NCBI GenBank assembly: GCA_017515105.1
Contig: JAFWHO010000001.1
Span: 266,903-330,110, forward strand
Direction of reading: 5' to 3'
DNA: 63,208 nt
From: Candidatus Saccharimonadota bacterium
GTDB lineage: Bacteria; Patescibacteriota; Saccharimonadia; Saccharimonadales; Saccharimonadaceae
Shown here: piece after piece, positions 45,098 to 45,326 of the stretch
Numbering within the stretch: the first letter of the stretch is position 1
Layout of the letters: every line of letters starts with the position of its first letter
Notes under the pieces: generated by a model
Told to the model about the DNA's origin: nothing
Seen by the model: only the letters and a program-made list of their open reading frames with translations
Databases searched by the model: none
Translations under genes and position numbers: made by a program

Positions 45098-45135
45098 CCA
45101 GCGGACCCCCTCTGGCCATTTTTTGGTTAATATGT

Positions 45136-45311
45136 TAAAATGAAAAAAAGCGTTAGAGCAGCTATCACCTGCGAGCTGGCGGAAGAAAGGGAATCAACCC
45201 GATTAGACCCGCCCGTGAATCCGCGTAAGAGACAAATTAAGTGTCGGCATTAGCCGGAAATTGGATGGTACCGCTCATCATGAGTTCCAATGGTTAACAT
45301 TGGAATTTTTT
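45136..45311 (+). promoter_or_regulatory. Isoleucine T-box riboswitch upstream of ileS
   Basis: A weak -10 (TAAAAT, 45136-45141) precedes a structured leader. The GCAG/CTGC stem carries ATC at 45164-45166, the likely Ile specifier, followed by A. Further stems GGCGG/CCGCC (45178-45213) and CGGC/GCCG (45245-45256) follow. The T-box motif GGATGGTACCGC is at 45263-45274, and its TGGT matches a tRNA ending ACCA. ATTGGA before it can pair with TTCCAAT to form the antiterminator. The competing terminator TTCCAATG/CATTGGAA (45285-45305) ends in T6. Uncharged tRNA-Ile should therefore allow read-through. Confidence 0.85.
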
Positions 45312-45326
45312 AATGAAAGGAGCGAT

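Follow-up and report, generated by a model that had tools for sequence, protein, structure and literature searches.

Positions 45144-45311 of the window (the whole 63,208-nucleotide stretch of DNA analysed here) are confirmed by sequence comparison as an isoleucine T-box leader lying 15 nt upstream of ileS (45327), and this leader very probably acts as a tRNA-Ile-sensing riboswitch that controls ileS through transcription attenuation. The anatomy of the leader, its covariation, the match between specifier and tRNA, and a conserved competing terminator are the sequence-based parts of this model; tRNA binding, sensing of aminoacylation and tRNA-dependent read-through we infer from established T-box biology. 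An earlier note on this DNA had proposed such an element in a CPR-like lineage, and the records of the closest relatives do indeed belong to Candidatus Saccharibacteria.

The features of the leader are listed in Table 1. Transcription from the candidate promoter would start at about 45148. The specifier, the helper stems and the TGGTACC bulge all lie where the earlier note had placed them, as do the antiterminator helix, in which ATTGGA (45260-45265) pairs with TCCAAT (45286-45291), and the terminator, whose arms TTCCAATG (45285-45292) and CATTGGAA (45298-45305) are followed by the T6 tract (45306-45311). Stem I is as compact as had been claimed, spanning 29 nt with the specifier in its apical loop. 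An S-turn in Stem II and a IIA/B pseudoknot are typical of T-boxes without being obligatory; the S-turn is AUUA in the window versus AGUA in many relatives, which counts against the T-box reading. By its modern definition the T-box discriminator consists of an RRRxG-Stem III-AA feature, a 7-nt bulge and a terminal G-U pair of A2 (PMC7583486), and all of these parts are found in the window leader, the first of them as AAGUG-UCGGC..GCCGG-AA.

Table 1. Features of the ileS leader and gene, in window coordinates.
Feature	Coordinates	Strand	Basis
Candidate promoter TGGCCA-17-TAAAAT, extended -10 (TG)	45113..45141	+	Consensus scan: 1 match, with 0.9 expected from shuffled sequence; weak alone
Ultrashort Stem I: AGC/GCT base, K-turn-like GTTAGA/GA, 4-bp GCAG/CTGC, 7-nt apical loop CTATCAC	45149..45177	+	Covarying helix pairs
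Specifier AUC, followed by conserved purine A45167	45164..45166	+	Invariant in 23 aligned leaders; complementary to tRNA-Ile(GAU)
Stem II with S-turn region (GAAGAAA / GATTAGA)	45178..45213	+	Lower part: 5 pairs, kept in 100%; double changes at 4
Stem IIA/B pseudoknot: CGU/GCG hairpin, and UCC with GAGA (one base bulged)	45214..45232	+	All pairs kept
RRRxG-Stem III-AA purine string and Stem III	45239..45259	+	5 pairs, 100% kept, 4 double-changed
Antiterminator: A1 (ATTGGA/TCCAAT), bulge TGGTACC (45266-45272), A2 (GCTC/GAGT), terminal G-U pair	45260..45291	+	Covariation
Intrinsic terminator TTCCAATG-GTTAA-CATTGGAA-T6, exclusive with A1	45285..45311	+	-9.3 kcal/mol, T6; equivalent hairpin in relatives
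Shine-Dalgarno AAAGGAG	45316..45322	+	Sequence
ileS, isoleucine--tRNA ligase, 998 aa	45327..48323	+	TIGR00392, 752 bits against a cut-off of 621

A default Rfam scan of the whole window reports only tRNAs and no T-box, because the leader, at 50 bits, misses the RF00230 gathering score of 93, which is a database threshold and not a biological feature, and which presupposes a long Stem I. When 501 bases were searched by a permissive local cmscan, the leader matched the whole RF00230 model with the distal part of Stem I deleted (50.0 bits, E=4.6e-10), so that the covariance-model match suggested by the earlier note is there by its E-value and falls short only of the gathering cut-off; an actinobacterial ileS T-box scores 31.9 bits in a comparable search. 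The ileS leader is also the sole T-box match in a scan of the entire 811-kb genome (E=1.8e-10).

Comparison with related loci gives strong support for the structure. The leader is present at 26 of the 80 closest ileS loci from other Saccharibacteria (27 of 81 including the window), and all 27 have a 4-bp stem fully paired around a 7-nt loop containing AUC. In an alignment of 23 leaders, 98.5% of 802 cells conform to the 35-pair structure, and double changes occur at 19 of the 35 pairs. The covariation score is 0.376; shuffled controls give 0.183, with none of 500 reaching the observed score, and slid ones do not exceed 0.081, a control that favours the structure because this was derived from the window with the relatives in view; the double changes are independent of how the structure was derived. 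RNAalifold, given no structure as input, returns a nearly identical one. Individual helices vary as expected of paired strands: the Stem I helix is found as GUGG/CCAC, ACAG/CUGU and GCGG/CCGC, for example, one pseudoknot pair changes from C-G to U-A in 9 of the 23 leaders, A1 is paired in 100% of them with a double change in L104, and the terminal G-U pair of A2 is present in 23/23. Both the AUC-A and the UGGUACC sequences are invariant in this alignment, and thus the covariation in homologous ileS leaders and the constancy of the ATC position, on which the earlier note had let its proposal depend, are both in evidence. A wider set comprises 126 parsed leaders, but is no independent test of AUC, since this triplet is part of the parsing pattern.

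The isoleucine specificity that had been proposed agrees with the tRNA complement of the genome: the anticodon of its tRNA-Ile(GAU) is complementary to AUC, and the discriminator A followed by CCA matches the UGGU of the bulge. We note a further tRNA-Ile, with anticodon TAT, at G000:C4:100378-100451 (L117), in addition to tRNA-Ile(GAT). A tRNA-Ile with this anticodon is unusual in bacteria.

The transcriptional mode of control, also part of the original proposal, is upheld by the conservation of the competing terminator and its T-run. Among the closest ileS loci, every leader except that of L104 (26 of 27) has a hairpin between the 3′ strand of A1 and the sequence downstream of it, followed by T6-7, and the upper pairs of this terminator change jointly (AATGC..GCATT, AATGG..CCATT, AATAGC..GCTATT). 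Judged from its sequence, an A1-strand hairpin followed by a T-run is the classical attenuator arrangement. The terminator stem in the window is modest, with 8 bp, and a simple terminator scanner did not report the window hairpin, probably because the stem gets extended into the T-run. In the mechanism that we favour, uncharged tRNA-Ile(GAU) would pair through its anticodon with the apical AUC of the ultrashort Stem I, with Stem II and the IIA/B pseudoknot acting as a brace, and through its ACCA end with the UGGU of the bulge, stabilizing A1/A2 together with Stem III; the A1 3′ strand would then be unavailable for the terminator and ileS would be transcribed. With charged tRNA, the A1 3′ strand would pair downstream instead, and transcription would stop at the T6 tract. 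Counting against attenuation is the absence from the window leader of the long Stem I with its elbow-binding motif, which transcriptional T-boxes generally require (PMC7583486).

The product of ileS was predicted to be a type-2-like enzyme, and its best solved relatives are in fact eukaryotic-type or MupA-like IleRS proteins, not the housekeeping type of S. aureus. The HIGH signature is HHGT in 79 of 81 sequences (residues ~54-57 of the window protein, P0001), with Thr replacing the last His. At three ileS genes (G253:C4, G270:C3 and G423:C1) the match is split near residue 220 by approximately 350-460 extra bases that keep the frame open, constituting an insertion near the editing domain.

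Of 393 genomes of the class, 238, representing 103 of its 153 genera, have a match at E<=0.01 to a covariance model built from the window-type leaders (R1), and most of the matches fetched are situated 5′ of ileS or of a small gene that comes before it. By this sequence criterion the T-box is widespread in the class and no one-genome curiosity. At L174, L183, L185 and L207 the T-box is separated from ileS by a small gene that appears by eye to be CYTH-, NUDIX- or inositol-monophosphatase-like, and the switch would therefore control an operon. In a sample drawn from the whole phylum, RF00230 has matches at E<=0.001 in 128 of 380 genomes, and 13 of these genomes exceed the curated cut-off. T-boxes of this survey in other Patescibacteria classes (L005, L012, L015, L023 and others) lie, by eye, upstream of argS, argG (argininosuccinate synthase), tyrS and an IleRS-like gene. 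The leader at L023, from a genome outside the class, precedes the IleRS-like gene, is ultrashort and bears a terminator. Canonical T-boxes appear from their sequences to occur in other Patescibacteria also. Among the closest relatives the element has been lost or replaced repeatedly, with 11 changes on the IleRS tree, at least 8 of which are forced by well-supported branches. At 41 of the 81 ileS loci (L034-L113, for example L035, L042 and L050), 6-8 nt separate the ATG from a sigma70-like -10 box upstream, which suggests that ileS mRNA is leaderless where the T-box is missing.

That the leader is a chance resemblance next to an ordinary terminator might be argued from the Rfam score below the cut-off and from promoter and terminator scans that do no better than shuffles, but the local E-value, the covariation in 23 sequences and the presence of the element upstream of the same gene across the class leave this with a negligible probability; the covariation by itself already rules it out. 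Scarcely more credible is a decaying relic that has lost its regulatory role. The T-box is patchily missing in close relatives, most of which have the -10 box close to the ATG, and L066 has an apparent relic; in the window, though, all of the functional motifs are intact and the pairs are kept by compensation, whereas erosion should quickly cost the specifier or the T-box bulge, as in L066. The L066 remnant lies approximately 55 nt upstream of ileS and has a Stem I without AUC, with the Stem II 5′ strand GGAAGAAAGGGAG at the Shine-Dalgarno position.

A more serious contender, albeit an unlikely one, is an ultrashort-Stem-I T-box that acts on translation, or at both levels, much as in the Actinobacteria, with the freed A2 5′ strand masking the Shine-Dalgarno sequence when uncharged tRNA is lacking. 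The aptamer is the kind found in translational T-boxes of Actinobacteria, CGCUC in the window can pair with GAGCG around the Shine-Dalgarno sequence, which is only 33% unpaired in tRNA-free folds, and the leaders of two relatives (L104 and L256) have GCCCGC opposite the Shine-Dalgarno sequence GGCGGGAG, have no classical terminator beside A1 and look truly translational; these two probably combine the same aptamer with a sequestering hairpin. Against this, T6-7 directly 3′ of the hairpin is conserved in window-type leaders, the Shine-Dalgarno sequence lies outside the conserved hairpin, and complementarity between the A2 strand and the Shine-Dalgarno sequence shows no coevolution (own pairings -7.97 kcal/mol, permuted -8.11 kcal/mol, 883 of 1000 as low), a permutation test over 39 leaders that rejects masking as a conserved second layer of control. 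In the window itself the freed A2 5′ strand CGCUC may still pair with the Shine-Dalgarno region in folding models, and so could have some effect on translation. Transcription attenuation is therefore the reading that we prefer for the window leader.

The terminator of the window, which competes with A1, is by sequence a minority arrangement in the class. Most genera, other than that of the window and one other of its family, have no hairpin 3′ of A1; in these (for example L179, L198, L207 and L262, among L174-L273 outside the genus of the window) Stem III contributes its 3′ strand to a helix with the arm directly before the T-run. Pairs between this strand and the arm are bimodal in free MFE folds, with 0 in the window type and 6-16 in 64 of 104 non-redundant leaders, and the pairs beside the T-run vary in type (C-G, U-A, G-C and A-U). 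The MAFFT alignment has poor register in the outer helix of this terminator, and a permutation and fold-based counts were used instead of a covariation count. For 30 dissimilar leaders the summed energy is -449 kcal/mol with their own arms versus -211 +- 17 kcal/mol with swapped arms, the lowest of 1000 permutations being -268. At least 6 pairs also form in 28% of shuffled-arm and 44% of swapped-arm trials, because the arms and Stem III sequences resemble each other across related genera, and the energy permutation is thus a stronger test than the fold-based count.

Both A1 and A2 remain formed inside the terminator hairpin in these folds, so that only Stem III is surrendered. Stem III is required for binding the tRNA 3′ end (PMC7583486), and a Stem III locked by tRNA would for that reason be expected to block the terminator. 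We consider it likely that most genera of the class use an undescribed ileS T-box mechanism, in which Stem III and the terminator both draw on the Stem III 3′ strand, and in which the terminator encloses intact A1 and A2 and has Stem III as its sole competitor. Taken with the ultrashort Stem I on transcriptional switches, this would mean that CPR T-boxes attenuate transcription without a grip on the tRNA elbow and that those of most genera leave the antiterminator intact. We found no description of a platform of this kind in the accessible open-access literature. In four leaders of one family of the same order (L194, L204, L208 and L219) Stem III is apparently missing, a short A-rich stretch lies between the purine string and A1, and the terminator is downstream of A1.

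The T-box as a kind of element and the ultrashort aptamer, from translational ileS T-boxes, are known already, and the combination of this aptamer with transcription attenuation is treated as atypical in the accessible literature. As far as the open-access literature shows, its combination with intrinsic termination across a CPR class is new, as are the description of T-boxes in Patescibacteria and the terminator that competes with Stem III; no paper there brings together T-box, Saccharibacteria and riboswitch. In 2008 T-boxes were reported from a few phyla only, with ileS T-boxes of Deinococcus and Dehalococcoides mentioned (PMC2494555), and ultrashort transcriptional cases could already be among these or in existing T-box tables. 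The present data extend the range of T-boxes into Patescibacteria. The need for tRNA to bind before the polymerase has gone past the terminator is the reason why a long, elbow-gripping Stem I has been tied to transcriptional T-boxes; the ultrashort form has been tied mostly to translational ones (PMC7583486). Ultrashort T-boxes bearing terminators throughout a class make this kinetic argument directly testable. Because the natural variants (competing with A1, competing with Stem III, masking the Shine-Dalgarno sequence, or apparently without Stem III) share one aptamer, they offer a way to dissect what Stem III contributes to switching.

The window leader resembles the ultrashort-Stem-I translational ileS T-boxes of Actinobacteria (Nocardia farcinica and Mycobacterium tuberculosis; PMC7583486, first seen in PMC1262725) in the apical position of its specifier on a very short Stem I, and also in its K-turn, its Stem II with a putative S-turn, its IIA/B pseudoknot, Stem III and T-box bulge, as well as in its predicted control of ileS. 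A Tsukamurella ileS T-box of this known type matches R1 (E=2.8e-11) with identical aptamer anatomy and has no T-run, being the only actinobacterial T-box locus inspected; a Rhodococcus plasmid ileS gave no T-box match. In contrast to the actinobacterial elements, the window leader has an intrinsic terminator, not a hairpin sequestering the Shine-Dalgarno sequence, and its host belongs to the Patescibacteria; from its sequence we take it to share the actinobacterial aptamer and do not class it as a translational T-box. With the transcriptional T-boxes of Firmicutes (B. subtilis, for example; RF00230) it shares an A1/A2 antiterminator opposed to an intrinsic terminator made from the A1 3′ strand, but its Stem I, of equally short length in the relatives and with an apical specifier, is not the long one of those elements, and it therefore lacks the interdigitated double T-loop motif that grips the tRNA elbow. 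The T-boxes of other genera of the class (L179, L198 and L207) have the same ultrashort aptamer, specifier, T-run and target gene or operon, and differ in that their terminator recruits the 3′ strand of Stem III while A1 and A2 stay paired, whereas that of the window uses the 3′ strand of A1.
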